IMG/VR virus record: IMGVR_UViG_3300037248_000059
Span: 1 to 40,665 of that record
Origin: a virus
DNA: 40,665 nt
Direction: 5' to 3' (one strand)
The notes under the pieces were generated by a model that saw nothing but the letters and a program-made list of their open reading frames with translations, was not told the origin of the DNA and did no database searches. Positions within the stretch are counted from its first letter, which is position 1; each line of letters starts with the position of its first letter. Shown one piece after another: positions 3,501 through 38,000 of the stretch. A program made the position numbers and the translations under genes.

Positions 3501-5261
3501 GGCACAGAGAAAGCGAACAGCGCCTGCACGAATCTTTCGATTGGCACAAACTGCACGTTCACGGCGGTTGGTACGGGAGCATCGGTTCCAACAACTCAGT
3601 CGCCTCAAATTCTTCCTCCCGGCACGATCGTGAATGACTGCGGCGTGAATCAAGGTATCCCGTGGCTCTACGGATTCAAGTCAGATGGCGACAATCACGC
3701 GCTGGCAATGTTCGATTCGACTACGAACACAACGCAGTCTCCGAATGGCCCTGTGATCGGCGGCACGATGCATTGGTGTACCCGCACAGTGTTTGATGAC
3801 ACGGGTTATAACGGCGGAAATCTGATGCCGAATAGCACAGGCGGAAGAGCCTCCTTCGTGAATATCTATCACCTTCCCGGCATCAACTCTGGGCAAGGAT
3901 GCTGCCCCACGGGAAGTCAACAAGACGACAGAACGTTGAGCGTGTTTGGTGATGCGCCTGTAGGTGACAATAGTACGCGTACTGGCGCTCAGTTGACCGT
4001 GTATCTTGAAAGCGGACAAAACGGCCATGCCACGCTAATAAACGGTCAGTCCATCACGACCAGTATGGCTTCGCTACGCGCGAACACATTCCTCGATTCG
4101 GACGTAGCCAGCACAACGTTCACTGGCTCGATGTTCGGAGTCGATTCGACAATTGAATTTGAGTCAGGAGTAATTTCCAGTTCGACGGCTGCCGTCCATG
4201 GACAGGTATCTTTTCCGGGTACAATGACTACGGGAACGCAGACTGAAGCGGATTCATTCTTCGCGGATACCCTCGGAACGACCAGCACTCACTTGGCAAT
4301 CTACGCCGGATTCCATGCTCATGCTGCCCACTCTTACGCTTCGACATACAACGCTGGTGGATGGTTCGAGGACTACGGAACAGGCAACACGAATTTCAAC
4401 ATCTTAAGCGATGCCACTTCAAGTAATTTTGCCCACAACTACTTTGGTGGAGTGAGTACCTTCGAGCAAGGCATTACCGGGTCTATTCTGCCAACGGCGA
4501 TCACTGCTCCAACTGGTGGCATTTCTATCGCTCCGACTTGCGTATCTGGTTGTACAACAACGTGGACTTACAAACTAGTGGCAAAAGATGCGATGGGCGG
4601 GTGGGCTTCAGTCCCACTATCGCTGAATACCGTCCTTGGAGCCGCCACACTCAATGGAAGCAATTTCAATACAATCACTTCGGGGGGTGGCGCCGGGAAG
4701 GTTCCTTGGACGGGTTCCACGTTTGGTATCTATTCGTTTGACGTATACCGCACTACGGCAGGCGGGACACCTTCGACTACAGGTTACATTGGCAATTTTA
4801 CTTGCCTGATCTCGGGTGTCTCGTGCACTTTTGTTGACAATGGCCTAGCCATATCGACTCCAAATAACTCTGAGCCCTTGACGCCTCCTACGTGGAATAC
4901 AAGTGGAGCCGGGGGCGGAGTCACAATCAGGACAACGACGAACTGCCAAGGGGTTGGTACAGCGGCTAATCCCAGTGTTGCATCTTGTAGTGCCGCGCCT
5001 GCCGGATTGTTTTCATGCGCTACGAATGCTGCCACTGGTACGTGTGTGGTCAATACTACGGTTGTGACCACGAATAGCGCCATTCATATCGAACCGGATT
5101 CTTCCATTGGCGGAGTTCTGGGAGTGACGTGCAATACGACTGTCGATTCCGGCTTGACTGCGCCTAGAATCTCGGCGCGAACTCCAGGGACAAGTTTCAC
5201 GATCGCGCTCGGTACGTTTACGACAAATCCAGAATGCTTTACTTATACGATCATCAACTAG
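546..5261 (+). CDS. Large secreted-type tail fibre / appendage protein (1571 aa)
   Basis: A very long Gly/Ser/Thr-rich, Lys-poor protein with low-complexity beta repeats, typical of phage fibres (segments such as GTVTSFSAGSLSPLFTT and TGSGTNVVLQTTPT). The N-terminus carries a clear Sec signal peptide (KSLLKLLVILGLATSLWSQ). ATG 546 overlaps the previous stop, but ATG 579 has a better SD (ACGAGG at 568-572) and gives a compact signal peptide, so 579 may be the true start. Cys pairs (GCAGSCS, CVSGC) are scattered and could form disulphides after export. The last ~100 residues (TTNSAIHIEPDSSIG ... PGTSFTIALGTFTTNPECF) look like a C-terminal beta domain seen in acidobacterial secreted proteins. 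Role inferred: host binding or surface decoration. Confidence 0.7.
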   Translation: MNMNRNLTRMGMKSLLKLLVILGLATSLWSQTSNVTATITDPDGQTWNNGTYTISFIPTPGNPGPFSWNGNPNFPQNYTGSLNGAGVLTVSIPDNSFIVPRGSLWQFTLCSRTSAPCQNVQLSVTGANPNLSTPLSTPLIAPRFSAGQYSFGYLDVEVNAPIINSVLAPGIVYYNVTNQIQRIWNGSAWANNSGGGSGTITGINTNAGSGLIGGGLSGTLNLSLTNTCAASQVLQWNGSGWVCSSAGTGTVTGSGASPIFPIWTGTNALGSSNLTNIPGPPAGVNYSLGSGLSWQIDANNVNFNSGCAGSCSILIQNSYAPGANNNAGGILIRGAPATGSANAGPVEILGGSTNGAGNGSSVVAGAGGSNGFGAIGGNVNITGGSTTASNSGGSIFLTPGTGGSGNGAVNISGLANGCLNITGGVVGTTGSACGSGSGGGTVTSFSAGSLSPLFTTSVATGTTTPVLSFTLSTATQNTLFGAATSTTPAYNPVPGCSGAQNALIWTTNTGFGCNTIATGGPGTGTANSVATWVSSSSLGSIVGTVSGQTLTAVNSSAPVFASAGLADSVNSPVTSASYTIACDSSTTVIDRTHILRFQSGASTPVVPLSTATGCTGGFVTAVIDDGAGSLVFGRTSPDTFSVFNGSSASDGQTSFTLTNGQFATLTQGAPGIWEVRVSSYIYPGSGIANSTGSAWATSYATTGSGTNVVLQTTPTINGPTMSNPTLGLASSPSAVLQNYTSSVITPGLIVKIDPGVNDTVLAVTTSDTEAVGIVQASPASSSNVAISGAAFCTFDSTPTAGHYVQISTTTSSNCHDAGATPPTSGSVVVGRVIDSTGNVDVRITPLAGSSSPAFSAVTSGTNLNTLAVGGVGSLVPTGVGQITGNGLFLSTGGLSGLPIPFTPSVASVASSGGGLTYNTAYFFRTAYSNGTQTSVGSEEVSLEPVNFPSSTCTASLTVCEMVITSPPAIPGVTGGTWTFYSSTTTGTEKANSACTNLSIGTNCTFTAVGTGASVPTTQSPQILPPGTIVNDCGVNQGIPWLYGFKSDGDNHALAMFDSTTNTTQSPNGPVIGGTMHWCTRTVFDDTGYNGGNLMPNSTGGRASFVNIYHLPGINSGQGCCPTGSQQDDRTLSVFGDAPVGDNSTRTGAQLTVYLESGQNGHATLINGQSITTSMASLRANTFLDSDVASTTFTGSMFGVDSTIEFESGVISSSTAAVHGQVSFPGTMTTGTQTEADSFFADTLGTTSTHLAIYAGFHAHAAHSYASTYNAGGWFEDYGTGNTNFNILSDATSSNFAHNYFGGVSTFEQGITGSILPTAITAPTGGISIAPTCVSGCTTTWTYKLVAKDAMGGWASVPLSLNTVLGAATLNGSNFNTITSGGGAGKVPWTGSTFGIYSFDVYRTTAGGTPSTTGYIGNFTCLISGVSCTFVDNGLAISTPNNSEPLTPPTWNTSGAGGGVTIRTTTNCQGVGTAANPSVASCSAAPAGLFSCATNAATGTCVVNTTVVTTNSAIHIEPDSSIGGVLGVTCNTTVDSGLTAPRISARTPGTSFTIALGTFTTNPECFTYTIIN

Positions 5262-5684: not shown

Positions 5685-8600
5685 ATGCGCTGGCTCCTAA
5701 TTCTCGCGCTCGCATTGAGTTTATCTTGCGCTGCTTTTGGGCAGACTTGCCCGAAGGGAACTGCATACGCAGACGGCTGTCTAGGGGCAGCAGTAGGAAC
5801 AGCTCAACTACCGCATCTACTGGATTTGCAGCAAGTTACTGCTTTAAATATTTTGGGTGGGAGTGGCTACACCAACGGCACCTACTCATGGACAAGCACG
5901 GGCGGAGGGTGTTCAATTGCTGCATCGGGCACAGTGACAGTTTCAGGGGGCGCTGTTGGCGGCCCGTATGGGGGAAGCTACACTATTTCAAATGAAGGCT
6001 CAGGGTGCACTTCAGCACCAACTGTCGCAATACCTGGTGGGGCGGGTAGTGGGAGCGGCGCTTCAATATCCGCAACTGTTTATAACGGAGTTCCGCCATG
6101 GAATGTTGCAGGTGTGAACTATGCCGTTGGTGTACCAAGCGGGACATCACTTGCAGATCCTACGACTGGCGGCCTTCCCAGTGGCTGTACTTACGCATCG
6201 AATCTAGTTACCTGTACGGGCGCCAATTTCGATCTAAACGGTTTTGACTTCACCCTCCACAACACTAATCTTTCTATCAACGCATCAGGTAATTGCGCTG
6301 TCAGTAACAATAGTTTCGTCATTAACTCTAACAATCCAAATTGGATCGTCGCCATATCCACTTCTAATACCTGTAATATTACATTCCAAAATAATAGCAT
6401 CAACGGGCTAGCCACAATCGGCGGGAGCGGCAGCGGATTTAATGCTAACCCTACTTGGATTCTTGATCCCGGTGGGAGCGGGGACATTACCTTGCTTTAC
6501 AACTACTGCCACAACATGGATTCCAAGTGCACGCAGATAAGCGGAAATACATCGCGTACTAAGACTTACACTGAAAAATACAATCTGTTTTATGCTTATG
6601 GCGAGTGTTCCACCCCGCCCTGCTCGCACGGCGAAGCGGAGTACACTTACTCCCCTGCATCGGCGACGATAATCCCGGTTTTCTCGTTTAATACGTACTT
6701 TGTCCCATTCCACAATTCACCTGCCAATCTCACGGCTTTGCAGGCGGTGCAAGGGGACACGGTTATTTTGGCAAATGGTTCCATCGATCATAATGTAAAT
6801 TTGGCTCCCGGCCCCGCAGCGAACAATGGGACTTGCGGTACAGCGGGCAACCATGCCTATACTGCGTCGGCAAATATATATGATGGGTTCCAGAGCGGTG
6901 GAGGGTTGAACAACGTCACATTCGACTATAACTACTTGGATGGTTCGGCACTTTTCTTCAACTGGTATCACACCAATGGGTCAGGGCTGATCTATCAAAA
7001 CAATATCGATGCTGGCGGCGGAGGGTTGTGCAACCAGAGCGGAAAGTCTGCGGCCACAGCTCCTGTAGCCTCTCCAGCCAGCGGGACATATAGCGGAACA
7101 CAAACGATAACACTGAGTAATCCTTCTGGCGCTCCGGTAGTCTGCTGGAACACGAACACGTCACCGGTTACGAATCAGGCTACGGGATGCAAGAATGGGA
7201 CAGTTTATACCGGACCGATCACTGTTAACTCTAGCGAGACTCTGTATTATGTTGCCGGAGGAACAGGAGTAGACGACAGCATCCAAGCGTCCTCTACGTA
7301 TACAATCTACACGGCCTATGGCCCTCCGAACTATGCCGGATCGCCGTCCACTAATCCCACGGCAAACTATATCGTTCCTCCTCCTGCTACTCCGAATGCG
7401 AGCGTGGCTTGTGCCGTGGGCGGGCTGAATACGAATTGCCGTTCGTACTCGCTGGGAGCTAAGACGGTATTCACGGATAGCTCTTACTTGACGTGGATGG
7501 GGTTTGCGGACCTGAATACAGCGACGATCTGCACGGGGCCTCTAAGCGCACAGGATCATCTGAACGTGAACTGGACGGCAGGCAAGGGCGGTTCATCTCT
7601 CATCCCGCTGGTGAATCATAATTCAACTTTGGCCGGTCTCGAAACGACATCTGGCGAGTACATTACGATCATCAAGAATGGCTTCTGTGTTGCGCCCACC
7701 TATCAGGTATCTGGTGAACCTGCTGGTGGTCCGCACGATGTAGCCAATAACTCAGCCTGCGGAGTGACAACGGAGTGCTCGATTCTGATTACGCAGGCTA
7801 TGAATCTGAGCAATCCCGGATCAAACTCGACATCGTTTAACTTCGGCGCTCCGTTCATGGATTTACAAGACCCTAGTGTGGCGTGGATATATGGAACGAA
7901 TACGCAGAACACGACATCGAATCTCTGGGTCAATAAGGCAATCTTTGGTGGAACCAATCAGCATACAGCGAGTTTTGTTCCTGATGGCTCGTTCACGTTG
8001 GCCACGACTCCGACTGTGGATTTCCAATACGCCCTTCCGGTCACTTACGCTCCGGTCTATTCCACGAGTCCAGTTGCAGTAGCGGCTGGGGATTACACGA
8101 TTCATCAACTGATTGCCCCTCCGAGTGCAAACGCTGAATTCCTTCAGTACGCTCCGCTCACTGCCTATAATGCTGGTGATATCACCGTTCCTGGAACAAA
8201 TGGAGATGGCGTCACAACCAATCCTGGAGCCTGTATGTATAAGGTTCTAGTTGGCGGCACAACTGGATCGTCTGCACCTAATTTTGGAAGTATCAATCCA
8301 TGTCAGACTCACGCAGTTACGGACGGGACGGTTAAGTGGCAGAATCTATCTTCCACGGCGCAGTTTCTTTATGAGAATACTGGAACCGCTGGCACCACGT
8401 CAGGATCGTCAGCGCAGTGGATTTTAACTCCCGCGACGCTAGCTTCGACTTGCTCTATTACTTCTGGCTCTGTCACGCTCACCTGCCCAAGCAGCACCTT
8501 TGCAGCGGCAGACGATGGGCAGGCTGTCTCCGTGAGTGGAGCGGGGGCTGCGGGCGCAACACTGTATGGAATTATCACTGCACTGTCAGGGACAACTACG

Positions 8601-10757
8601 GCCACGTTGTCAGGGCCAGCCGTAACCTCAGTCACTTCCTCAGCTACGGTTTCACTCACAGGTCATCCTAACCTTCTCGGATTCCATAATGATTCAGGCG
8701 GGATCAAGTGGACGAACGTTGGACCTGCCTATGTTCCCATTTCCGCTGGCGCATGGGATGATGCCTCTGGCGTGAGTTACGATCAGAGTACGTTTGCGAT
8801 GGCCATGTCCACCAACTCTTATGGTCCGTGGACCAAGGGTGGAGATGATTATCTCAGTCAGACGGCAGCACAGCAGAACACTGGACAGTGGATGACGGTT
8901 TGCAAAGTTGCCGATCCGGTTAGCGGGAATCCGGCTTGCTATGTTCTTGACATGATTACAGGCTGGCAATCAAACGTCACGGGCTGCGCGAGCCTGTCGA
9001 ATTGCTCTGGTGGCACGCTGACAGCCATTGGCGTGATGAATGCCGACATCAATCCGTGTCCAACAGGATCGGCGGGATTCAGTCCATGTCCATCTACCCC
9101 ACCACAACCAAACTGTGCGTCCAGTGTTCACAATGAAAAACTATCTCCGAGCGGTAATTTTGTGTTCCTAACGGGCTTTTTTAACTTCTATGACGGAGCC
9201 AATGGAACGACGTACTGCTCTTTGGTGGAGAACTTCTATGGCTGGCTCCCGAATGGGATCAACAATAACAACGTGTTTGATGCAAATGTTAATTTCCAGA
9301 TCGCGGCTAGCGGCCTGCCGCACTTTGCTGTGGGCGCGAGCCATACTTATGGATTTCACAACGGCGGTCAGGGGCAGAATTCTGGCGTGATGACAGCGGC
9401 ATACACGAATACCAATCTCAGTGGCAACGGCGGCGGTTTGCCTCCGGGGTGTGGGAATGGTTCCGGCCAGTTCGCGTGCATCACTCTTAGTGGAGCGGCA
9501 CAACCTTATTTCAACATTCCTTATACATTCTCAATCGCCGGGCAATCGACTGGAGACACGGTCACGAATAACAACTACCTAATCAACGGAATCGCACAAA
9601 CCGTATACGGCACGCTCAATCCTCTCGTTTCTTACAATTGCAGCAATAGCTCCGGGACTTGTCCTGGACTCCCGAACGATGATCTTTTTCCAAGTTGGGA
9701 TCAGCACTTCGATCCTTCGTACAATCCCGGATTTACTGATACGGGATGGCTGATCGGAGTATCAAACACACTTGAGCCAACAATTGCAGTCAGCGTACCT
9801 TGGCAGAATCAGTTAATGGCCTTCCCAATGGTCAATTGTGCAACGAGTACGACAGGAACCCCGCCTAATCTAAATGGCTGTCCGGGTACGACTCCATTTG
9901 GTACAGCCAAACTCTTCTTTCATAGCTTCAGTTGCGTGAACTCGCCATTTTTCTCCACGAATGTTCCGATCAGCGAAACTGGGCAGGATGGCACGGTCAG
10001 CCTATTTGGAACTGACTTCTGCGGTCAATTCGGCTCTACAGGGCCGCTTCCGGGCTCTACAACGGGCCAGGGCGCACCGATGAATGGTTCGGGGCAGTTG
10101 GGCTACCTCCCGGCAACCTACGCCCCCTTTGGGCCTCAGCCAGCCGTAGCTGTTTGTTTCTGCGGCCCACCGTGGCAGGCAAACTACACCTACGCGGTCG
10201 GAAACGTGATTGCGCCTCTGATTGCCTCTGCCGGAGAGTCTGGCACGGGAGCATCGTCTGTCCTGCAGGTGATCGCCGCTTCGGGCGGAACACTGTGTTC
10301 TAGCCTTCCATGTTCCGGCTCGAGTCAGCCAGCGGCGTTTACCAGTTCGAGCCTGATTATTCCTTCGGCAGCGGTTGGAGTAACTTCCTGCTCTGATTCA
10401 GGATCGTCGGCAAGCTGTGTAACTTCTACGCAGGCATTTATTAGTGGTGGTACCTATCCCGCCAGCATTGTCATTGCAGGCAGCGGCACTACGGGCTATA
10501 ACGGGACGTGGGTGCTGACAGGGGCCACCGCAACGAGCGTTTCATTCACGGCCACAGGGCTAGGAACGTGCAGTTCATCTTGCGGGACGGTGTATCAGCA
10601 AGGGTCGCAGATAACGGACAACGGGTTAACGTGGCAGGCAGTGGCGAATGCGCCCAACACCAGGGGGGACGTTGTGCTCGTGAACCTAAATCCCTCGGGG
10701 GCAGTCCAAGTACCGGTCGCGCCAGCACCACAGATGCTCGCAGCGATCGCACATTGA
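5685..10757 (+). CDS. Giant secreted beta-helix / tail appendage protein (1690 aa)
   Basis: Begins two bases after the previous stop. Residues 1-20 are a signal peptide (RWLLILALALSLSCAAFGQ). Residues ~180-450 contain Asn-rich, short hydrophobic strands (such as NCNITFQNNSINGLATI and NVTFDYNYLDGSALFFNWYH) of the right-handed parallel beta-helix or pectate-lyase type. Residues ~458-541 form a chitobiase/hexosaminidase C-terminal-like module (SPASGTYSGTQTITLSNPSG ... YTGPITVNSSETLYYVAGG). The remainder is a long beta-rich, Cys-containing region with several WQ/WTNVG-type blocks. The combination suggests a polysaccharide-binding or depolymerising spike, but no catalytic site is identified. Neighbours suggest joint assembly with the fibre and Fn3 proteins. 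Confidence 0.65.
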   Translation: MRWLLILALALSLSCAAFGQTCPKGTAYADGCLGAAVGTAQLPHLLDLQQVTALNILGGSGYTNGTYSWTSTGGGCSIAASGTVTVSGGAVGGPYGGSYTISNEGSGCTSAPTVAIPGGAGSGSGASISATVYNGVPPWNVAGVNYAVGVPSGTSLADPTTGGLPSGCTYASNLVTCTGANFDLNGFDFTLHNTNLSINASGNCAVSNNSFVINSNNPNWIVAISTSNTCNITFQNNSINGLATIGGSGSGFNANPTWILDPGGSGDITLLYNYCHNMDSKCTQISGNTSRTKTYTEKYNLFYAYGECSTPPCSHGEAEYTYSPASATIIPVFSFNTYFVPFHNSPANLTALQAVQGDTVILANGSIDHNVNLAPGPAANNGTCGTAGNHAYTASANIYDGFQSGGGLNNVTFDYNYLDGSALFFNWYHTNGSGLIYQNNIDAGGGGLCNQSGKSAATAPVASPASGTYSGTQTITLSNPSGAPVVCWNTNTSPVTNQATGCKNGTVYTGPITVNSSETLYYVAGGTGVDDSIQASSTYTIYTAYGPPNYAGSPSTNPTANYIVPPPATPNASVACAVGGLNTNCRSYSLGAKTVFTDSSYLTWMGFADLNTATICTGPLSAQDHLNVNWTAGKGGSSLIPLVNHNSTLAGLETTSGEYITIIKNGFCVAPTYQVSGEPAGGPHDVANNSACGVTTECSILITQAMNLSNPGSNSTSFNFGAPFMDLQDPSVAWIYGTNTQNTTSNLWVNKAIFGGTNQHTASFVPDGSFTLATTPTVDFQYALPVTYAPVYSTSPVAVAAGDYTIHQLIAPPSANAEFLQYAPLTAYNAGDITVPGTNGDGVTTNPGACMYKVLVGGTTGSSAPNFGSINPCQTHAVTDGTVKWQNLSSTAQFLYENTGTAGTTSGSSAQWILTPATLASTCSITSGSVTLTCPSSTFAAADDGQAVSVSGAGAAGATLYGIITALSGTTTATLSGPAVTSVTSSATVSLTGHPNLLGFHNDSGGIKWTNVGPAYVPISAGAWDDASGVSYDQSTFAMAMSTNSYGPWTKGGDDYLSQTAAQQNTGQWMTVCKVADPVSGNPACYVLDMITGWQSNVTGCASLSNCSGGTLTAIGVMNADINPCPTGSAGFSPCPSTPPQPNCASSVHNEKLSPSGNFVFLTGFFNFYDGANGTTYCSLVENFYGWLPNGINNNNVFDANVNFQIAASGLPHFAVGASHTYGFHNGGQGQNSGVMTAAYTNTNLSGNGGGLPPGCGNGSGQFACITLSGAAQPYFNIPYTFSIAGQSTGDTVTNNNYLINGIAQTVYGTLNPLVSYNCSNSSGTCPGLPNDDLFPSWDQHFDPSYNPGFTDTGWLIGVSNTLEPTIAVSVPWQNQLMAFPMVNCATSTTGTPPNLNGCPGTTPFGTAKLFFHSFSCVNSPFFSTNVPISETGQDGTVSLFGTDFCGQFGSTGPLPGSTTGQGAPMNGSGQLGYLPATYAPFGPQPAVAVCFCGPPWQANYTYAVGNVIAPLIASAGESGTGASSVLQVIAASGGTLCSSLPCSGSSQPAAFTSSSLIIPSAAVGVTSCSDSGSSASCVTSTQAFISGGTYPASIVIAGSGTTGYNGTWVLTGATATSVSFTATGLGTCSSSCGTVYQQGSQITDNGLTWQAVANAPNTRGDVVLVNLNPSGAVQVPVAPAPQMLAAIAH

Positions 10758-13708: not shown

Positions 13709-14294
13709 CGCAGCATCACTCCTGACAGAGCAGATTATCCCGTTTCGGAAGCGATGGGAAAACTATTGGGCTCCGCTCAAAAAAGCAGCCTGGGATGCCC
13801 ATAAGTCGATCATGGGCCGGTTTAATGAAGGCGATGAACCAGCGGCGAGAGCTGAGCGTCTTGTCAAGGATGCGATCCGGGTTTGGGACGATGAGCAGGC
13901 ACGCATTCAACAGGAACGTCAACGTAAGGCGCAAGAGGAAGCGGAGCGGATGGAGCGCGAGGACCGGCTGGCTGAAGCGGTGATGGCTGAGAATTCTGGA
14001 GCGGCAGCAGATCAGGTTACGGCGATCCTGGAAGCGCCTGTCACCGCGGTTGCTGCTCCGGTACAGCCGACTTACGCCAAGGCCGTGGGAGTTTCTGGGC
14101 GGGACAACTGGAAGTGTCGCGTTGTGGATATGAAAAAGCTCTGCGCGGCGATCGGCAAGGGGCAGGTTCCAGTCTCCTATGTAGATCCCAACGAAGCGGC
14201 GCTGAACGCTCGAGCGAAAGCCGATAAAGAAACTTTAAGCATCCCCGGATGCCAAGCCTACAACGAACGAACGATTACAGGGAGATCCCGATGA
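13611..14294 (+). CDS. Coiled-coil phage protein of the recombination module
   Basis: 227 aa; two adjacent ATGs (13611, 13614) with SD GGAAAGG. Residues ~40-125 are strongly helical and charged (QARIQQERQRKAQEEAERM), predicted coiled coil. The C-terminal part (GRDNWKCRVVDMKKLCAAI ... IPGCQAYNER) resembles conserved phage proteins found next to annealing proteins. It overlaps the nuclease gene by 98 bases and the annealing-like gene by 4 (ATGA), so the three form a coupled unit. Activity unknown; a partner or loader of the recombinase is a guess. Confidence 0.65.
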   Translation: MMAESEQELKQESLTVVQQASLVKIVDQQSYDNAASLLTEQIIPFRKRWENYWAPLKKAAWDAHKSIMGRFNEGDEPAARAERLVKDAIRVWDDEQARIQQERQRKAQEEAERMEREDRLAEAVMAENSGAAADQVTAILEAPVTAVAAPVQPTYAKAVGVSGRDNWKCRVVDMKKLCAAIGKGQVPVSYVDPNEAALNARAKADKETLSIPGCQAYNERTITGRSR

Positions 14295-15394
14295 GCACAG
14301 AACTGGTAACTCAGCAACAGCAAGCTGTCCAGCAGTGGAAGTCTCCGTCGCAGATCAAGCAACGGATCGAAGCCATCCAGGTACTCATGACTCAGGTGCT
14401 CAAGAAGGACACTGATTTCGGGATTATTCCGGGGATGCCAAAAGGGACCAAGCCAAGTCTGTGGAAACCTGGGAGTGAGCAAATTCTTGCCATGTTCCAA
14501 ATTGCGTGCGAGCCCGTGGTGGAGGATTTGTCGGTGGAAGATTGCTACCGCTATCGGGTGACAACCAGACTAACCAATGTCCAGACTGGAGAGTTCTTGG
14601 GCGCCGGTATCGGTGAGGCTTCCACGGACGAGACAAAGTACAAGTGGAAGGCGTGCTACTCCAAAGCCGAGTTCGATGCTACTGATCCCGGCCGGCGTCG
14701 GATGAAGTACAGCAGTTGGCAGGGCAAAGACACGGAGCAGATGCAGGTACGACAAGAGCCGGCTGACCTGGCCAACACAATCCTGAAGATGGCCAAGAAG
14801 CGATCCCAGATTGATGCCACGCTAACCGTTACGGGAGCCTCGAGCATGTTTGAGCAGGATCTCGAGGACTTACCGGAGGAAACTAGACAGGAAATGGCTC
14901 GGCAACGTGGTGGGAAGAAAAAGGCCGAAACTGCTCCGGTGGGGGATACCATGTGCGGGGAGTGCCGCCAAGTGAACGCACACCACCCGCTGTGCAAATA
15001 CTTCAAAGGAACGCCGCCTGCTGCTGCACAGGTGGCTCCTGCTGAGGCCACGCCTGTTCAGCCACAGGAAACCACCACCCAGACAGTAGAGCCGCCCCAG
15101 AAGCCCAGTAATACGAAAATGGCAGTGAAGATAAATTCCGTCTCGGAGCGCAGCAAGGTGAAGGACGGTAACAAGCAGATTTACCTCGTCTTGGGGGTAG
15201 TAGATCCCAACAACGACGAATGGGATCTGTACGTTTGGCACAAGACACTGCAAGAAAGAGCGGCTACCTTGGCCAACAGGTCGGCCTTGATCGAGTTCTC
15301 GCAGAAGACTTCGAACGGCCGGACGTACTGTTCGCTGGAAGCGATTCTGGAAGTTGTTGGCGAGCAGGCGTCTGAACCTGACGATGATTTCTAG
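14291..15394 (+). CDS. Putative single-strand DNA annealing / binding protein with OB-like tail
   Basis: 367 aa from ATG 14291. The N-terminal ~200 residues match a widespread uncharacterised phage family (KDTDFGIIPGMPKGTKPSLW, KPGSEQILAMF, GIGEASTDETKYKW, NTILKMAKKRSQIDATL, SSMFEQDLEDL). The middle holds one Cys/His knuckle (CGECRQVNAHHPLC). After a Pro/Gln/Thr linker, the last ~95 residues (MAVKINSVSERSKVKDGNKQ, EWDLYVWHKTLQE, ALIEFSQKTSNGRTY) look like an OB-fold. Beside a RecB-like nuclease, this suggests the annealing or ssDNA-binding half of a Red-like system. The link is contextual, not a family proof. Confidence 0.6.
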   Translation: MSTELVTQQQQAVQQWKSPSQIKQRIEAIQVLMTQVLKKDTDFGIIPGMPKGTKPSLWKPGSEQILAMFQIACEPVVEDLSVEDCYRYRVTTRLTNVQTGEFLGAGIGEASTDETKYKWKACYSKAEFDATDPGRRRMKYSSWQGKDTEQMQVRQEPADLANTILKMAKKRSQIDATLTVTGASSMFEQDLEDLPEETRQEMARQRGGKKKAETAPVGDTMCGECRQVNAHHPLCKYFKGTPPAAAQVAPAEATPVQPQETTTQTVEPPQKPSNTKMAVKINSVSERSKVKDGNKQIYLVLGVVDPNNDEWDLYVWHKTLQERAATLANRSALIEFSQKTSNGRTYCSLEAILEVVGEQASEPDDDF

Positions 15395-18718: not shown

Positions 18719-19434
18719 GAGTTATTGACCCAGGACACAAGTACGCCCTTTCTCATTTGGATGGCGTCGGTGAAGAAATTCTGACTTTTGTCAAGCGGGA
18801 AGGCGTGGGGTATCCCGGAAATGTAGGCCATTACGAAGGCACAAACTTGCAAGAAATGATTCGGGTTGGCATCCACCGAATGAAGTATTTGGATAATCAG
18901 ATTCACGATACAACCAATAATGACGGTATAGAAGCAGCGCGAGATTGGCTGTGGGCGTTGGAACTGAGAGCAGCGAGACGACATGGGCGAACCCTAGAGC
19001 CAAACTTGTATGAAACCATTGAACATCACCCGGTTTGCAGTCACTGCGGACATGTGGGATGCGAGGCCGGGGCCGCGCTCTTCAGTCCCTCACCCGCCAA
19101 GACGGACGTAGAAGCGGGATCGCAGCCGGACTATATCGTTACGTGCAAGAAATCGTCAAAGCCACACCTACGAGATACTTGCTCGCGTAGAGGTTGCATC
19201 GGTTGGGAATCAGTCAACTCGCAGCAGCCGGACAGCCAGCCACAACTCGGAACTTGCATCTACGAATCGAAGCCGCACCCGTTTAACAAGGGAAATGTGT
19301 TATGTCACAGATGGACGCCTATCGAGCCTGCGGTTTCTGTGCCTGCCGAGTCTCCGGTCAATCCAAAAGCGTTCATGTACGTGGAAAGTATTTGCGACTC
19401 TGCGGCCTCACCCGCAACGGAGAAGGAGAAATAA
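18715..19434 (+). CDS. Conserved phage protein with Cys-rich tail
   Basis: 239 aa. The first ~100 residues (MRVIDPGHKYALSHLDG, FVKREGVGYPGNVGHYEGTN, MKYLDNQIHD, WLWALELRAARRHGR) match a conserved phage family of unknown function. The remaining part is linker-like with CSHCGHVGCEAG, TCSRRGC and other Cys pairs, perhaps a later addition. The ATGA start overlap and a KE-rich C-terminus carrying the next SD indicate operon coupling. Confidence 0.65.
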   Translation: MRVIDPGHKYALSHLDGVGEEILTFVKREGVGYPGNVGHYEGTNLQEMIRVGIHRMKYLDNQIHDTTNNDGIEAARDWLWALELRAARRHGRTLEPNLYETIEHHPVCSHCGHVGCEAGAALFSPSPAKTDVEAGSQPDYIVTCKKSSKPHLRDTCSRRGCIGWESVNSQQPDSQPQLGTCIYESKPHPFNKGNVLCHRWTPIEPAVSVPAESPVNPKAFMYVESICDSAASPATEKEK

Positions 19435-19436
19435 GA

Positions 19437-20005
19437 TGCCCGATAAAGCGGTCGTAATGTTCGACAGCCCCGAGGCTGCGCAGCGCAAAACGGTCACCGG
19501 TTGGGTTTCGCGAGATGGGCGATTCTATGGGGATGACGAAAGAATCGCCCGCTATGCCGGGTGTACTCATCGACAGTGCGAATCTTGCTTGAATGTAGTC
19601 GAGAAGGGACGCATTTACTGCGATGTGTGTACGTCAAAGCAGACGAGGGAAAAATACGAATCGCTTCCAGCCAAGGCATGGGATGGTAACACTCCGCTAT
19701 GCGCATACGATACGGACGACTATTTCTTCGATGAGGATTCCTTGATGGAATATTGCGAAGAAAACGAAGTCGAACGGGAAGATTTGATGCTCGTGATTTG
19801 TGATCCAGTGAAGCCGAGAGCCTACGATTCAGGCGATTTGTTTGCTGATTATTTGGCCGACGATGGAGAAGCTCCAGATGAAGTCGTTGACGCACTGGAT
19901 GCCTTGAATAAGGCGATTGCGGCGGCTCCCCCATTTTCATGGTATCCGGGAAAGTTCCGTCCGATATTCAATCCCTCACTGAGCAAGGAGAATGACAATG
20001 GCTAA
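19437..20005 (+). CDS. Conserved phage zinc-binding protein
   Basis: 188 aa from ATG 19437 (SD GGAGAAGGAG); upstream in-frame starts overlap the previous gene and are unlikely. MPDKAVVMFDSPEAAQ, then TVTGWVSRDGRFYGDDERIA, a zinc site (CESC ... CDVC) and an acidic second half ending PPFSWYPGKF. This matches a widespread family of phage/prophage proteins with no known activity. Near-family length. Confidence 0.75.
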
Positions 20006-28423: not shown

Positions 28424-28807
28424 ATGTTTTGCGATGAAATGGTTTTGCGTCAAATCTTAGAAAAGGTGGATAAACTTATGGCAACAGTACCCCCTGGCCT
28501 CGCTGCACTGCAGACGAGTGTCACAACCGTTCAAAATCTACTCACAACCCAAAACACGGATATTACGAACTTGACGCAGGCGATCACGGTAGCGATTGCT
28601 TCTTTGTCGAGTTCAGAGGATCCACAGGTACAGGCGGCGGTGCAGACGTTAAATGCTGCGGTAGCAGGCTTGCAGACGAACGAGGCTACGATTGAGGCGC
28701 AGACGACTGCTCTCAGTGGAGCGGAGGCGCCGACAGGGCAGGTGGCTGCCGCTTTGAAGCCGACCGGGACAACGAACATCGGTAACACTGGACAGAAGAC
28801 GGTCTAA
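28424..28807 (+). CDS. Coiled-coil structural-type protein
   Basis: 127 aa from ATG 28424; later ATGs at 28439 and 28481 are possible. Long heptad-like helices rich in Ala, Thr, Gln and Leu (ALQTSVTTVQNLLTTQNTDI, VQAAVQTLNAAVAGLQTNEA) predict a trimeric or dimeric coiled coil. Such small proteins are common in late phage operons; the exact role is unknown. Confidence 0.6.
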   Translation: MFCDEMVLRQILEKVDKLMATVPPGLAALQTSVTTVQNLLTTQNTDITNLTQAITVAIASLSSSEDPQVQAAVQTLNAAVAGLQTNEATIEAQTTALSGAEAPTGQVAAALKPTGTTNIGNTGQKTV

Positions 28808-28820
28808 GGAAGAGGGGGCA

Positions 28821-29624
28821 ATGGCTGATCCGGAGTTGGGGAATAGGGCTAGCGAGCAAGGGCAGTACGAGCGGGGTGCGGACTTTGAAGGGATAAACAG
28901 GAGCACCCTGCCGGCTGCCGGGCCGATACTGGAGGTTGATGTCAAGTCTGACGGTGCAAATTTGCAGTTGTCTAGACGAAACGGTAGGGCCGCGCGGTCG
29001 CTTGAACTTCGCCACTCCGAATCAGACATACTGTCCGCACAGTTGTTGGACGATCCCGAGATGACGGCCTTTGAGGTTCCGAATGTAGGGAAGGTGGAGG
29101 CTTCTCCGTCCAGGATCTCAAAGGCGTTGTCGCGGAATGCGAACAGGGAGCAGTTGATCTGGTTCGGGATTGACTCGGCGAATAAAAGCGCAGTCATAGG
29201 GGATAGGATTATTGTTCGGCGGGACACGTTGGAGTCGGAGTACATTTGCAGGTCATGCAAAGGAAAAGGACATACCGATGAGGAATGCGGCCACTGCGGA
29301 GGAAAGCAGCAACGGAACGGAGAGCACTGTAAATCCTGCACCTGTCTTGGGTATGAAGCGGAAACGCCGCACCCGAGCGGATTCGCTCGTTGCGAAGATT
29401 GTCGAGGTTCTGGGTGGAAAAACGGAATCGTCGTCCCGGAAACTGCTCAAGGTAAGCCTGTTACTGGAGTTGTCGTCAGCCTTGGACCGGAAACGAAACT
29501 CCTGAAGCTCGGAGACCGGGTGTTGCATTCAAAGTTTGCGGGGCATACTTTGGATATGAAGCAGGAGACGTACACGTTCATGCGCGAGTCCGAGGTTATT
29601 AGCCTGCTGAGGGATACGGTGTGA
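28821..29624 (+). CDS. GroES-like co-chaperonin with DnaJ-type zinc finger inserted in the mobile loop
   Basis: 267 aa with SD GAGGGGGC. Residues ~126-267 follow GroES/Cpn10: AVIGDRIIVRR (first strand), the mobile-loop tripeptide IVV in KNGIVVPETAQGK (203-205), TGVVVSLGP, KLGDRVLHSKFAG (as GD.V.F....G) and TFMRESEVISLL (as ..REsDILA). Between strand 1 and the tripeptide sits a ~55-residue insert with four DnaJ-like motifs: CRSCKGKG (143), CGHC (156), CKSC (170) and CEDCRGSG (191). The first ~120 residues match nothing known to me. Phage GroES homologues (T4 gp31) help host GroEL fold the capsid protein; terminase, portal and capsid genes follow here. The zinc finger could bring unfolded substrate to the chaperonin. 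Palindrome copy 4 lies in codons 46-49. Confidence 0.75.
   Translation: MADPELGNRASEQGQYERGADFEGINRSTLPAAGPILEVDVKSDGANLQLSRRNGRAARSLELRHSESDILSAQLLDDPEMTAFEVPNVGKVEASPSRISKALSRNANREQLIWFGIDSANKSAVIGDRIIVRRDTLESEYICRSCKGKGHTDEECGHCGGKQQRNGEHCKSCTCLGYEAETPHPSGFARCEDCRGSGWKNGIVVPETAQGKPVTGVVVSLGPETKLLKLGDRVLHSKFAGHTLDMKQETYTFMRESEVISLLRDTV
28955..28966. repeat. Palindrome copy 4 (12-bp core, coding)
   Basis: TGCAAATTTGCA, flanked by G on both sides, so the outer C-G pair is absent. Read again as ANLQ. Confidence 0.85.
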
Positions 29625-29938
29625 GCCAATCAAAAATCAAATCTCGTATCCCGGCCTTTGACGTAGTGGAGTTCTCCGAGGACTCCTACACTGAGCGCGG
29701 CGAGCGGGTGTATAAGACGATGCGCGTTACTCTCAAGCCTCTGCTTGATCGTCCCTTTGTGAAGGTGCTCCGGTGCGACAAGGGAATCGGAATCACGGAA
29801 GAGTGGATCGAGGACACGATCAAAGGTCTTTGGCAGGCTCTGGACAGGGATTACCCGACAGACGAATTTCGACTCGTGCGTCACGCTCCGAACGATGTCA
29901 GTTTTGAGTACTGCGGGACGAAGGGAGCGGTGCAGTGA
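29621..29938 (+). CDS. Late-operon protein, unknown
   Basis: 105 aa from GTG 29621 (GTGA overlap). KSRIPAFDVVEFSEDSYTER, MRVTLKPLLDRPFVKVLRCD and a helix (EEWIEDTIKGLWQALDRDY) give an alpha/beta protein. No family recognised. Confidence 0.6.
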   Translation: MSQSKIKSRIPAFDVVEFSEDSYTERGERVYKTMRVTLKPLLDRPFVKVLRCDKGIGITEEWIEDTIKGLWQALDRDYPTDEFRLVRHAPNDVSFEYCGTKGAVQ

Positions 29939-30129: not shown

Positions 30130-30617
30130 GACTATTTGAGCTTGAAGCACGACCGGACTGGCAGAAGATAGCAACCGCTGTTCCTTGTCCGGTAGAAGGT
30201 GGCTGTGGAGTTGGTGTCGGCCAGATGTGCATCGAGTTGGGCATGGCTAACAGAAAGCAGCGTGCCGACTTCCATGCGGTTCGTAAGCAGCACGCCAAGA
30301 GTGTTTGGGAGACAGGAGTAGCAGATGCCGAGCAACCCAGCGAGATCGGATGCGAAGACCCTTCAACTGGCAGCAATGGACTTCGCACTGGCGCCAGCGG
30401 AGACGATCCGGAAGGAACTAGGGATAAGCCAGTCAGCGATCAGCCAGCGCCGACAGTCGGAACTCTACAAAACGACAGTCGAGGAACTGAAACAGGCATT
30501 CAAGGAAAAGATGCTTCAGACTCCGGGCTCAACGGAGATACGCAAGACAATCAGTTGGGCGCTGTCAATCGCGGTAAAGAAGATCCTGGGAATACTATCC
30601 TCTCCAAAGACAAGTAA
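30126..30617 (+). CDS. Zinc-finger protein whose tail overlaps terS by 293 bases
   Basis: 163 aa from GTG 30126 (GTGA overlap). Residues ~16-55 (ATAVPCPVEGGCGVGVGQMC, ADFHAVRKQHAK) fit the phage finger CP..C....G..C ... H..R that binds DNA. From residue ~67 onward the reading overlaps terS in another frame and is disordered (Ser/Gly/Asp/Thr/Gln-rich). The finger is credible; whether the full tail is translated is uncertain. Confidence 0.55.
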   Translation: MRLFELEARPDWQKIATAVPCPVEGGCGVGVGQMCIELGMANRKQRADFHAVRKQHAKSVWETGVADAEQPSEIGCEDPSTGSNGLRTGASGDDPEGTRDKPVSDQPAPTVGTLQNDSRGTETGIQGKDASDSGLNGDTQDNQLGAVNRGKEDPGNTILSKDK

Positions 30618-30777
30618 CCGGGATGTCATCGGCGCCGCTCGCCTCGTTGCGCAGATGGACGGCAGATTCCTAGGAACGGCGGACGAAGATGGTCACGGCA
30701 AAGTCAATGACAATACTGAGTCCCTGGCCGCGGAACTCATGAAGATGGTCAACCGGCCAAAGGATAAGGTTCAGTGA
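30325..30777 (+). CDS. terS: Terminase small subunit
   Basis: 150 aa from ATG 30325 with SD AGGAG. An N-terminal helix-turn-helix (ETIRKELGISQSAISQRRQS) recognises the packaging site; helical oligomerisation segments follow (ELKQAFKEKML, ISWALSIAVKKILGIL) with a C-terminal tail. It directly precedes terL with a GTGA overlap, the usual order. Confidence 0.75.
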   Translation: MPSNPARSDAKTLQLAAMDFALAPAETIRKELGISQSAISQRRQSELYKTTVEELKQAFKEKMLQTPGSTEIRKTISWALSIAVKKILGILSSPKTSNRDVIGAARLVAQMDGRFLGTADEDGHGKVNDNTESLAAELMKMVNRPKDKVQ

Positions 30778-32654
30778 GTGTTCCGGAAGGCTTGGAGTCG
30801 GAACGAGACTTTGTTCAGGAAAACTCCCCAACCGCCTGGCATGAAATCGTAATCTGCGATACTGACTCATCCGAGGCCAAAGTAGCTGCCATGCGGCTCA
30901 ATGCTCTCGGCAGCCTGTTTTTCTTCTCCTATCACATCCTGCGACACTTTAGACTTTCCCGGAACCTCCACGCTTACATGTGCAAGGAATTGGAGAGAGA
31001 CACCCTCCGGCTAGGCATGGAGATCCCGCGGGACCACTTCAAAACAACGGTAGCGTCTGTTTCCGCCCCGATGTGGTGGGCTCTCCCGTTTACGGCCGAG
31101 GATGAAGACCTGATGTGCGCGCTCGGGTATTCCGAGGAGTGGATACGCTGGATGCACCGCGCACACCACTCCTCGACTCGCACCATGATTGCCTCTGAAA
31201 CCATTGGGAATGCCCGCAAGATTGGTGTTAAGATCGACGGCCACTACAGCTCAAACCGCGTCTTTCGAGACCTATTTAAGAGCATCCTCCCCAAAGACAC
31301 GGCGCGCTGGAATCAGGACTCGATGACTCACAACCGTCTAGACGGTGAGTATCACGGTGAGGGTACGTTCGACTTCATTGGGGTCAAAGGAGCTTTGCAG
31401 TCACGCCACTACAACCGCCAGGTGATTGATGATGCGGTAGGTGAAAAAGCGATCAACTCTGAAGTCGTCATGGAAACGACGATCGATTGGGTAAAGAAGC
31501 TGCCGGGCGCCTTCGATTCGGATCCGCGCCGGCCGCACGCGATGGCAGATCAGTTGTTTATTGGCAACCGTTGGTCGCACCGTGATCTTGGGACTTGGCT
31601 CAGAAAGAATGACCCTTCTCTCCAGTTCATTACCCATTCGGCAGAAGGTGGATGCTGCCCCCTGCACCCGATCGGCCAGCCGATATTTCCGGAAGAGTTC
31701 ACAATGGAGAAGCTGGCTGACATACGGAGGATCGAAGGAGCGTACAACTACGCTGCTCAGTTCAGGAATAACCCAGTTGCTCCCGAAGCGGTGCGGTTCA
31801 AGGAAACATGGCTACGGAACTACCACATTGATGCTTGGAAGGAACCAAAAAGTTCGAACGAGATCAAGCCAGAAGAACGGATGAAAGTGGCCAACTGGGG
31901 TCAGTTGACCGACAAAAACAGGTTGGAGGCTTTGGGAATCATAGAGGACAAGGCAGAGGCAATGGGTGCGACTCCTGAACGTCTGAAGAAGGCGATGATT
32001 CACGAGGTCAAGGAAGGAGAGGCCATTGGAGACATCAGAGCTGGGGAACTCGATCGCTTTGCTTTCATGGACCCTAACCACTCGGGAGAGTTTGGGAGGG
32101 CGCGAAACGCAATACTTGTCGTTGGTGTCTACAACCGACCTCCTGCCCAGCGAAGAATCTATCTTCTCGATTGTTGGGCGAAGGCTTGCAACCACGAAGA
32201 GTGGCTCGATGCTGCGCTTTCGACGAAAGCTGGTAATCGCGGTCTGGTTGTTAAATGGCGATGTCACAGCCTCTATATCGAGAGTGAGGTCGCTGGTCAG
32301 CAGGGTTGGAAATATGCCATTAAAGAGCGGATGAAGAATATGGGAATCGATGCCTGCTTCTCCGTTCGTGGCCTGAAAACTGACCGCTCGGAGAACGCTA
32401 AAACCAACCGGATTATCGGAATGGAGTCGATCTATGAGAACGGATTCTTCTGGGTCAGGCGCGTAGGATGCGAGGCTTTCCTCGAGGAATATAGCGAGTA
32501 CCCGAACGGCGCGACGATGGATTTGCTTGACTTGGCTGGATACCTGCCTCAGACTTGGAGCGGAAGTTCGCGCGCTCAGGCACGTGAGTTTGTGGCGGAA
32601 GAGATGGACCGCCGAAAGAAACTGATGTCCAACGTCTCGATCGCAGGATACTGA
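30774..32654 (+). CDS. terL: Terminase large subunit
   Basis: 626 aa from GTG 30774. The ATPase motif is EIPRDHFKTTVAS (85-95), a terminase Walker A variant in which Arg-Asp-His-Phe replaces the G-rich loop. The C-terminal RNase H-like nuclease begins near residue 430 (FAFMDPNHSG with the metal Asp) and continues with LLDCWAKACNHEEWLDAAL. It cuts and pumps DNA into proheads at the portal. Length is typical. The one-base overlap with the portal gene indicates coupling. Confidence 0.85.
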   Translation: MSVPEGLESERDFVQENSPTAWHEIVICDTDSSEAKVAAMRLNALGSLFFFSYHILRHFRLSRNLHAYMCKELERDTLRLGMEIPRDHFKTTVASVSAPMWWALPFTAEDEDLMCALGYSEEWIRWMHRAHHSSTRTMIASETIGNARKIGVKIDGHYSSNRVFRDLFKSILPKDTARWNQDSMTHNRLDGEYHGEGTFDFIGVKGALQSRHYNRQVIDDAVGEKAINSEVVMETTIDWVKKLPGAFDSDPRRPHAMADQLFIGNRWSHRDLGTWLRKNDPSLQFITHSAEGGCCPLHPIGQPIFPEEFTMEKLADIRRIEGAYNYAAQFRNNPVAPEAVRFKETWLRNYHIDAWKEPKSSNEIKPEERMKVANWGQLTDKNRLEALGIIEDKAEAMGATPERLKKAMIHEVKEGEAIGDIRAGELDRFAFMDPNHSGEFGRARNAILVVGVYNRPPAQRRIYLLDCWAKACNHEEWLDAALSTKAGNRGLVVKWRCHSLYIESEVAGQQGWKYAIKERMKNMGIDACFSVRGLKTDRSENAKTNRIIGMESIYENGFFWVRRVGCEAFLEEYSEYPNGATMDLLDLAGYLPQTWSGSSRAQAREFVAEEMDRRKKLMSNVSIAGY

Positions 32655-34606
32655 TGCCCATTCCGGCCGAAGTGCCAATTTCGCATGTATTCTCAGACAC
32701 CCGAGTCGCTGATATTGAAGGCTATGCGAAAGACAGAATCCAGTCTCTAGTCCGCGGCCTGCGTGGTATCCGGGAAGAAAAAATCAGTAAGTGGCGCAAG
32801 GTCTACGCTGGCACGCCGCGAGAGAAAACGAAATCCTTCCCTTGGCAGAACGCCTCAAACGTCGTCATCCAGTTGGTCGGATCTTATGTCGATCAGCTTG
32901 TGGCCAAGATCGTCATGGGTTCGGTGGCGATGGAACCGCTGTACGTTGCTGAACTGGTTGGGGAATTTGACCAGCAGCAGCGTGCGGAGATGCAGCGGGT
33001 AGCGGTTGAGGAGTGGCTATCCTACCGAATGCTCGAGCCGTCGCAGGTCAACTACCTACCAAAGGCCGTGATCTGGATTCGCAACATGGTTCGCTACGGA
33101 TTTGGGTCTATTAAAGTCATTCCGGAGAAAGTAGTCGAGCAGGTGGTCACGGACGGCGGTGGGTTCCGTGAGTATGTCCGCCACAACGGACCAGTGGCCT
33201 ATCCGATCATGTTCGAAGACTTCCTGATGCCATCGACAACGATTGAGATTGAGCGCGCGCCATTCATCGCCCAGCGTGCGCGGTGCGAACGATTTGAGAT
33301 TGAGGCAATGCTTCACGATCCCAGTTACAACCGAAAGCGTATCCAGGAGGCTTTGAAGTCACCTACTCGCCAGGGTCCGGATCGTAACCAGCAGCAGATC
33401 GAGAATGAGACCGGCGCCAAGGTTGATATGGGCAACCCGGTGGTCGATCAATGGGATGTGTATGAGTGTTATTTCCCGTATCAGGTAGGAGGGAAGAAGT
33501 TCCAGCTTGTAGAAACCTGCATCACGGACGACAACGCGGAAAATCCGCAGTGGATCAAAGGGGTATTCAACTGGCTACCAGATAACTCGTTACCCTACAT
33601 TGGGGCTCGTCTAGGCTCGGATGGTGAGCGCGCCTATGGATTTGGCTTCTGCGAGATGCTCAAGGATTATCAGGAGGAAGTCACTGCTATCCATAATCGC
33701 CGCGGAGATGCTTCCACCTTGGCGAACACGAATCTGATCCGGATCGACACCGGCCAGCAGATTGACACCCAGTTCTCGATCTTCCCGAATGCCACAGTAC
33801 CAGCGGCGAAAGATGCCATCGAAGTCATCCCATTAGGTCGCACGGCCAACGAGACGATCGGTGACGAAAATATGACTTTGGAGCTGGCGCAGGATCGCGC
33901 CGGAGTCGGGCCATCTTCATCTGGTGCTGGTGGAGGGACGGTTAACAAGAAAGGTTCCTACTCGGCAATGGGGACGATGGCGACCATGCAGGAGGGAAAC
34001 TCAAGGTCGAACTTGAACGTGACTGAGTTCCGGCAGAGTCACTACTGCTTTGGCCGTCTGACGTTGCTTTACGACGCCCACTTTGGCGTGGATGAACGCG
34101 ACATGAAGGCGCTGGGGAAACAGGCGCAGTTCCTGCAGAAGGCTCTCGATAACGTCAAAAGTGGCAGCATCATTCTTCCGATCAGGGCCGCGACGGGCTC
34201 AGTCAACAAGGAAATCGAAAAGCAGAACTTAATGCTTTTGTTGAACAACTGGCGCAGTCATGTTCAGATGGTGACGCAGTTGATGCAGCAGATGTCGAAC
34301 CCACTGGCACCGCCTGAGCTGACAGATTATGTGGGGAACGTAATTCTGGCGTCCAATGTTCTGATGACGAAGATTTGCCGCGACTTCAATTTCACGGACC
34401 CGTCAGCCATCCTACCGGAGCCATTGGGGATTCAGGATAAGATCGATGAGATCGAGGATCAGGGCCGTATCAAACAAATCCAGAAGGCTTTGCAGTTGTC
34501 GATGCCAGCTTTACAACAGCAGTCGCAGGGACAGGGGCAACCGGAAGGAGGCGCGGTCACGAGTGCCGGAGCGTCTCCTGCGGCTGTCCCAGAGGCAGTC
34601 CAATGA
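32654..34606 (+). CDS. Portal protein
   Basis: 650 aa. A W-rich N-terminal clip region (KSFPWQNASNVVIQLV), a long alpha/beta wing (FRARLG-like YIGARLGSDGERAYGFGFCE), the stem helices (MLKDYQEEVTAIHNRRGDAS) and a Gln-rich C-terminus (QQQSQGQGQPEGG) are typical of large portal proteins. It forms the dodecameric DNA channel. Position directly after terL supports the call. Confidence 0.8.
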   Translation: MPIPAEVPISHVFSDTRVADIEGYAKDRIQSLVRGLRGIREEKISKWRKVYAGTPREKTKSFPWQNASNVVIQLVGSYVDQLVAKIVMGSVAMEPLYVAELVGEFDQQQRAEMQRVAVEEWLSYRMLEPSQVNYLPKAVIWIRNMVRYGFGSIKVIPEKVVEQVVTDGGGFREYVRHNGPVAYPIMFEDFLMPSTTIEIERAPFIAQRARCERFEIEAMLHDPSYNRKRIQEALKSPTRQGPDRNQQQIENETGAKVDMGNPVVDQWDVYECYFPYQVGGKKFQLVETCITDDNAENPQWIKGVFNWLPDNSLPYIGARLGSDGERAYGFGFCEMLKDYQEEVTAIHNRRGDASTLANTNLIRIDTGQQIDTQFSIFPNATVPAAKDAIEVIPLGRTANETIGDENMTLELAQDRAGVGPSSSGAGGGTVNKKGSYSAMGTMATMQEGNSRSNLNVTEFRQSHYCFGRLTLLYDAHFGVDERDMKALGKQAQFLQKALDNVKSGSIILPIRAATGSVNKEIEKQNLMLLLNNWRSHVQMVTQLMQQMSNPLAPPELTDYVGNVILASNVLMTKICRDFNFTDPSAILPEPLGIQDKIDEIEDQGRIKQIQKALQLSMPALQQQSQGQGQPEGGAVTSAGASPAAVPEAVQ

Positions 34607-37046: not shown

Positions 37047-38000
37047 ATGGTTCGCAACCAGTTCTTTCAAGCAATGAGCATCGACGTCGCGCATAATTTT
37101 ATTGAATTTCTGGACCTTCGCCAGAAGGCGGTGCAGTTCCGCTCGATATTCAACGTGCATCCGTCCAAAAAGGCGTATGAGGATGCGGTGCACTACGCTG
37201 GGTTCGGTCCGGCGCAGCCGAAGAACGAAGGCGAAGCGGTCGTCTATGACAACCTAATCCAGGGCGGTACTCGCCGGTACGTTCACCAGACTTACGGGTT
37301 GGGCGTGCGGATGTCCTATGAGCTGATGCAGGACGACCAGACGGGGATGATGGAACAGAGTCCCAAGGGTCTGGTGCAGTCGCACATCTTCGCCCAAGAG
37401 CAGACGGCGGCAAACGTGTTCAATTTGGGGTTCTCCTCGACTGGAACACTGACCGATGATGGGGTGTCGCTGTTTAATAACCAACACCCGTTGCTGGGTG
37501 GGATTGCGGCTACGAACATCGCTCCAGGAGTTGGGTCATTCTCTACGGCTTCCGGGACCTATCCGAATCGGCCGGCAGTGGACGCTGATCTGTCATTTAC
37601 CGCATTGCAGTACGCGACGATGACTTTCCAGCGGATGCCGAACGCGCGCGGCTTGGTTGTGGCCGTCCGTCCGAAGCATCTTCGGATTCCGCCTGAGCTT
37701 GAGTTCATTGCCATTGAACTGCTGGGATCGGCTGGAAAGCCATACACTTCTGACAACGAAGTGAACTCACTTCTGGCGACAGGCCTGAGCTACGAGTTGA
37801 ACTCGTATTTCACCTCGCCGTCCGAGTGGTTCCTGACTGGGAACAAGGACGAGCACCGTCTAATGTTCTTCGAGCGGCAATCGATCTACGGTGACTACGA
37901 TCGAGACTTCGACCAGCAGGCGCTCAAGTTTCTGGGTATTGCGCGGTACAGCGCCGGCGCGGATACGTGGTTGAATACCTTTGGAAGTCTCGGGCCATAG
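37047..38000 (+). CDS. Major capsid protein (Mu gpT-like, HK97 fold)
   Basis: 317 aa. VAHNFIEFLDLRQKAVQFRS, an E-loop-like region (GEAVVYDNLIQGGTRRYVHQ), GLGVRMSYELMQDD, LFNNQHPLLGG and a basic turn followed by RYSAGADTWLNTFG fit the gpT/HK97-fold capsid family. Forms the head shell. SD is weak (AGAGGG 14 bases upstream); a TATCTATAT element just before ATG is noted but not called. A likely folding client of the co-chaperonin encoded upstream. Confidence 0.8.
   Translation: MVRNQFFQAMSIDVAHNFIEFLDLRQKAVQFRSIFNVHPSKKAYEDAVHYAGFGPAQPKNEGEAVVYDNLIQGGTRRYVHQTYGLGVRMSYELMQDDQTGMMEQSPKGLVQSHIFAQEQTAANVFNLGFSSTGTLTDDGVSLFNNQHPLLGGIAATNIAPGVGSFSTASGTYPNRPAVDADLSFTALQYATMTFQRMPNARGLVVAVRPKHLRIPPELEFIAIELLGSAGKPYTSDNEVNSLLATGLSYELNSYFTSPSEWFLTGNKDEHRLMFFERQSIYGDYDRDFDQQALKFLGIARYSAGADTWLNTFGSLGP

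Follow-up and report, generated by a model that had tools for sequence, protein, structure and literature searches.

The window analysed here, i.e., the whole 40,665-nucleotide stretch of viral DNA in IMG/VR record IMGVR_UViG_3300037248_000059, carries on its plus strand an open reading frame whose product is, judged by its sequence and predicted fold, a co-chaperonin of the GroES fold with a cysteine-rich module set into its mobile loop. The frame runs without interruption over the coordinates given in the original prediction, and the features of the gene and of its downstream neighbours are as follows:

28807-28818, plus strand: strong Shine-Dalgarno-like sequence, AGGAAGAGGGGG, directly 5' of the ATG (direct sequence reading)
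28821-29624, plus strand: coding sequence of the putative zinc-finger co-chaperonin, 267 aa (open reading frame and Pfam; architecture conserved in related contigs)
28821-29132, plus strand: N-terminal extension, residues 1 to about 104 (window's subfamily only; Pfam and NCBIfam silent)
29199-29225, plus strand: first GroES barrel strand, GDRIIVRRD, residues 127-135 (alignments A2 and A6; a strand in the AF2 model)
29247-29402, plus strand: cysteine-rich insert, C143 to C194, with four CxxC pairs (eight invariant cysteines; pLDDT about 72-91)
29247-29258, plus strand: CxxC motif 1, CRSC, C143/C146 (translation and alignment)
29286-29297, plus strand: CxxC motif 2, CGHC, C156/C159 (translation and alignment)
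29328-29339, plus strand: CxxC motif 3, CKSC, C170/C173 (translation and alignment)
29391-29402, plus strand: CxxC motif 4, CEDC, C191/C194 (translation and alignment)
29418-29609, plus strand: C-terminal four-fifths of the GroES domain, without the roof hairpin (Pfam, PHROG and PDB matches; 8-residue turn in 19/19 members)
29427-29435, plus strand: putative GroEL-contacting tripeptide IVV, residues 203-205, in a low-confidence loop (hydrophobic in 19/19 members; pLDDT <50 at 203-210)
29621-29938, plus strand: overlapping downstream gene, kept in part of the clade (open reading frame list and clade comparison)
30325-30777, plus strand: conserved small gene before the large terminase, a candidate small terminase by position only (no family match)
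30774-32654, plus strand: large terminase subunit (phrog_38, E = 2.9e-46)
32654-34606, plus strand: portal protein (phrog_1216, E = 5.5e-8)
37047-38000, plus strand: major head protein, 317 aa, the favoured candidate client (phrog_371, E = 6.3e-12; relatives in named phages)

A profile search for Cpn10, one of the checks originally suggested, matched residues 200-261 of the window protein to PF00166 at 46.6 bits against a cut-off of 21.1 (E = 3.4e-12), and the same residues were matched by PHROG 3188 (co-chaperonin GroES) and by solved co-chaperonins in the PDB; the NCBIfam GroES models also matched, but below their full-length cut-offs. Cpn10 scores exceeded the cut-off in the members scanned (the window protein and a five-member scan), and PF00166 was matched by all members of an 11-member alignment (A2). 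Every GroES landmark that the original prediction had quoted was present and in the stated order, i.e., GDRIIVRR (127-134), IVV (203-205), VVVSLGP (217-223), GDRV (231-234) and TFMRESEVISLL (252-263), with the GDRIIVRRD strand lying about 65 residues upstream of the remaining GroES domain. The hydrophobic tripeptide that follows the finger was retained in 19 of 19 aligned members, as was the length of the segment from xxG (xLG) to GDRV, 8 residues. The roof hairpin of E. coli GroES is 17 residues long, and since the 8-residue segment is too short for it, the phage protein has no such roof. The N-terminal extension was indeed present, at about 104 residues where 120 or so had first been proposed; it is conserved within the window's subfamily and absent from the second subfamily, and a search for relatives of it returned nothing convincing.

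Structure prediction of the protein alone led to the same fold. An AF2 model of residues 104-267, built with 19 diverse sequences, had a pLDDT of 79.9 and a pTM of 0.52, with confident barrel strands, an insert mostly at about 72-90, and values below 50 at residues 203-210, tripeptide included, as expected of a mobile loop. The GroES beta-barrel was present in this model, and its best Foldseek matches in the PDB were Cpn10 structures (E = 2.3e-4), with T4 gp31 (1g31) at E = 5.2e-3, while the best viral matches were phage GroES proteins. These independent matches concern the GroES part, the fold of the finger itself being unmatched separately. The full-length model (13 sequences) was poor, with a pLDDT of 48.6, and its fold search gave no match.

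The central claim of the original prediction, that a cysteine-rich finger with four CxxC motifs interrupts the mobile loop, was borne out: the module, 50-60 residues long, follows the first barrel strand and precedes the hydrophobic tripeptide, and IVV starts 8 residues past the last CxxC pair, a distance identical in both main subfamilies. In the window's subfamily the cysteine spacing of the finger is 13, 14 and 21, and finger length and the spacing between motifs 2 and 3 (8-33 residues) are highly variable among members. The cysteines are conserved as pairs, rather than being placed so that no zinc site could form, and it is highly probable that the insert binds structural zinc. Its description as a DnaJ-type finger held up in part, i.e., in the four CxxC pairs and a general resemblance, but the cysteine spacing is its own, and with the DnaJ_CXXCXGXG profile (PF00684) the window protein reached 11.4 bits, short of the Pfam cut-off of 32.7. 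The best score among five members scanned, 22.7 bits in the second subfamily, was still below that cut-off, and the best E-value, 1.4e-5, was that of another member. We regard the relationship to the DnaJ and BSD2 zinc fingers as one of resemblance, not of proven homology.

Two IMG/VR contigs encode proteins that are 72-73% identical to the window protein and keep all eight cysteines. Other members were collected with a degenerate DNA pattern that combined the last knuckle and the tripeptide; nearly all of its 15 matches were genuine, a variant without the tryptophan found the second subfamily (three contigs), and a looser pattern lacking the knuckle glycines gave chance matches only and zero new members. 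The eight cysteines were invariant in 11/11 members of the 11-member alignment and in 13/13 after the addition of two second-subfamily members, and 18 of 19 members kept all eight in the wider alignment, the exception being L136. This contig belongs to a branch (L136, L137, L139 and L140, all with the same gene) whose insert is a single knuckle of just two CxxC pairs; this may be a reduced form or an ancestral one. Among the three closest members synonymous sites were saturated and pN/pS for the insert was 0.20-0.33. A pattern scan of the genomes of 84,980 species returned eight matches, none of them a GroES, and since it covered one spacing only it leaves room for rare cellular copies of the finger GroES; plasmid tblastn matches, among those listed, were ordinary GroES genes where annotated. 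A further contig, L150, has overlapping open reading frames on both strands (561-1046, minus, and 602-997, plus) with dense tandem cysteine-rich repeats, about 30 CxxC in number.

The survey of phage genomes for the insertion showed it to be clade-wide. Relatives were collected through the large terminase regardless of GroES (best 80 of 226), using a terminase alignment derived from finger-bearing phages, and whole records were then searched with PF00166 and with the family alignment. All 13 records of 34 kb or more that the terminase had selected (G007-G019) gave a GroES match, and in all 13 proteins a cysteine-rich insert lies at one site, C-terminal to the first barrel strand and N-terminal to the segment carrying the tripeptide. 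Some of these inserts have four CxxC motifs, others have CxxC, CxC, C-x5-C and CxxC, and that of G016 and its near-identical relatives has two CxxC only. Together with the window and six records first found through GroES, 20 of 20 carry a finger GroES. The terminase-selected records that gave no GroES match were all shorter than 30 kb and are for that reason probably fragments. An earlier impression from a first HMM pass, that many terminase relatives have no GroES, was discarded when the whole-record search placed the gene elsewhere in those records; in several clade members the co-chaperonin gene does not adjoin the terminase.

Within the window's subfamily the gene order is GroES, small gene, large terminase, portal and head protein, and in the second subfamily GroES adjoins a terminase that is only 32% identical. 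One lineage (L028 at 5690-9864, and also L029 and L091) carries an inversion of the terminase-portal block with respect to the co-chaperonin gene. Conservation is much higher in the major head protein than in its neighbours: over the part seen in L020 its identity is 98%, against 73% for the co-chaperonin there. Elsewhere in the window are two very large open reading frames, one of 1571 aa (546-5261) without a family match and one of 1690 aa (5685-10757) with only a short match to CHB_HEX_C_1, at the cut-off, as well as two genes (14249-15394 and 19295-20005) that strongly match PHROG families of unknown function, phrog_10048 and phrog_11053.

Named phages with a related head protein or terminase provided a point of comparison. 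A Cpn10 gene was found in 9 of 11 such records, and none of the eight proteins read from these nine had a CxxC-rich insert in the loop; the finger protein itself was not found in any named phage among 50,697 records. Where both positions were compared, the named phages encode GroES on the same strand as the head protein, about 2-2.5 kb upstream of it, and this proximity to the same capsid-protein family lends partial support to the originally suggested link with the capsid protein. In HTVC023P-type phages GroES is a core gene (PMC9599517). The simplest reading of these sequences is that a plain GroES is ancestral and the finger was gained within the window's clade. Alcaligenes phage vB_Af_QDWS535 (L207) has a Cpn10 match with an unusual loop in which there is no clear hydrophobic tripeptide.

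How might such a protein act? A search for Cpn60 (GroEL) genes, whose control was positive in 14 of 14 genomes, found none in 17 records (the window and 16 clade records), which makes host GroEL the most likely partner of the phage co-chaperonin. On its sequence and model, the window protein is very probably a GroEL co-chaperonin. The overall scheme, to which we give an even chance, is that the protein serves host GroEL as a gp31-like lid without a roof, and that its zinc modules hold or position phage proteins, the capsid protein first. The synteny of GroES with terminase, portal and head protein, and its place beside the same capsid family in named phages, were counted in favour of this scheme. 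By extension from GroES biology, the protein would form a heptamer that caps host GroEL in place of host GroES, with the IVV tripeptides docking into GroEL, and, as each mobile loop would bear a double zinc-knuckle module, seven finger modules would thus be arrayed at the rim where lid meets chamber. Resemblance and position suggest that one zinc would be bound by the outermost CxxC pairs (1 and 4) and a second by the inner pairs (2 and 3). On the same grounds, the fingers may hold or position phage proteins while these are loaded or released, the major head protein being the likeliest; a comparable case is the chloroplast, in which Rubisco subunits are held by stand-alone fingers of the DnaJ type. 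The precedent is ZnJ2, a DnaJ-like finger without a J domain that prevents aggregation of the Rubisco large subunit, itself a chaperonin client (PMC5818400). By this analogy we favour contact of the fingers with a phage client, i.e., the holding or positioning of the head protein, at a little under an even chance. More tentative, and less likely than not, is a reading of the protein as a two-in-one chaperone, in which the seven-finger ring would capture phage proteins and pass them into the capped GroEL chamber, dedicating host GroEL to capsid assembly. Counted against the overall scheme were the size of the head protein, which at only about 35 kDa should not need an enlarged chamber, and the clade members whose co-chaperonin gene lies away from the terminase.

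The main rival to client holding is that the finger makes no client contact and instead either touches host GroEL a second time, at the outer face of its apical domain, or anchors the mobile loop rigidly, with a gain in affinity that would let the phage lid win out over host GroES or pick one of several host GroELs. The location of the insert, within the GroEL-contacting loop and at the same short distance from the tripeptide in both main subfamilies, argues for this, as does the similar knuckle in anti-TRAP that makes specific protein contacts (its Pfam match here is sub-threshold), but a finger so variable in length and in motif 2-3 spacing, and in one branch reduced to two CxxC pairs, is loose for a defined docking surface, and we consider the rival unlikely. 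Still less probable is that the GroES fold now serves, independently of GroEL, in assembly or in the virion, e.g., as an adaptor on the terminase, portal or head protein: in the window's subfamily the gene lies directly 5' of the packaging genes, which, like the long unexplained N-terminal extension, fits such a role, but the flexible loop and its hydrophobic tripeptide have been kept throughout the 19 aligned members, and most relatives sharing the head protein have an ordinary mobile loop. A redox or zinc switch, in which oxidation or zinc loss unfolds the finger, alters loop mobility and tunes the lid to host stress, would make use of the eight conserved cysteines, and thiol-redox activity is possible for DnaJ-like fingers (PMC7865324, PMC4428491); nothing in this analysis favours it, however, a cysteine-deficient ZnJ2 mutant had similar holding activity (PMC5818400), and we think it very improbable. 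That the architecture reflects an error of assembly or gene prediction, or a fusion that arose by chance in a single phage, is refuted by its recurrence, uninterrupted and under purifying selection, in many independent contigs from many metagenomes, and has next to no likelihood.

The literature searched (most subscription papers lay outside it) yielded no description of a GroES with a zinc finger, nor of one whose GroEL-gripping loop houses a folded domain of its own, in keeping with the first impression that the architecture was not a known one. Its retention by a whole phage clade shows that the GroES mobile loop tolerates a putative metal-binding module and indicates that these phages probably need it there. 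The finger GroES also makes it possible to test directly how the host folding machine might be turned by a virus to its own proteins, for which the second subfamily and the single-knuckle branch are natural variants for comparison.

Set beside known systems, the window protein shares with GroES/Cpn10 (PF00166) the barrel, the strand order, a mobile loop with a hydrophobic tripeptide and the GD(R/K)V motif, but differs in the module within that loop, in having no roof hairpin, in its 104-residue N-terminal extension, and in lacking a continuous match to the N-terminal fifth of the profile. The DnaJ cysteine-rich domain, BSD2 and ZnJ2 likewise have four CxxC(xGxG) motifs, and the weak profile matches are clearer in the second subfamily; unlike the DnaJ domain, the window finger has no J domain, is embedded in a GroES loop with its own spacing, and has only two full CxxCxGxG motifs of four (1 and 4, CRSCKGKG and CEDCRGSG). 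Anti-TRAP (PF15777) has a short CxxCxGxG zinc knuckle similar to motifs 1-2, but it is a small stand-alone regulator, and its match to the finger family is below the cut-off. The plain GroES proteins of HTVC023P-type and related phages accompany the same head-protein family and are encoded near it, but the eight sequences read lack the CxxC insert. T4 gp31 has no roof loops and a mobile loop of 22 residues compared with 16 in GroES (PMC6318259); its loop has no metal module, whereas the window insert alone exceeds 50 residues, but like the window protein gp31 is phage-encoded and roofless, with an enlarged mobile loop and a fold to which the model was matched.
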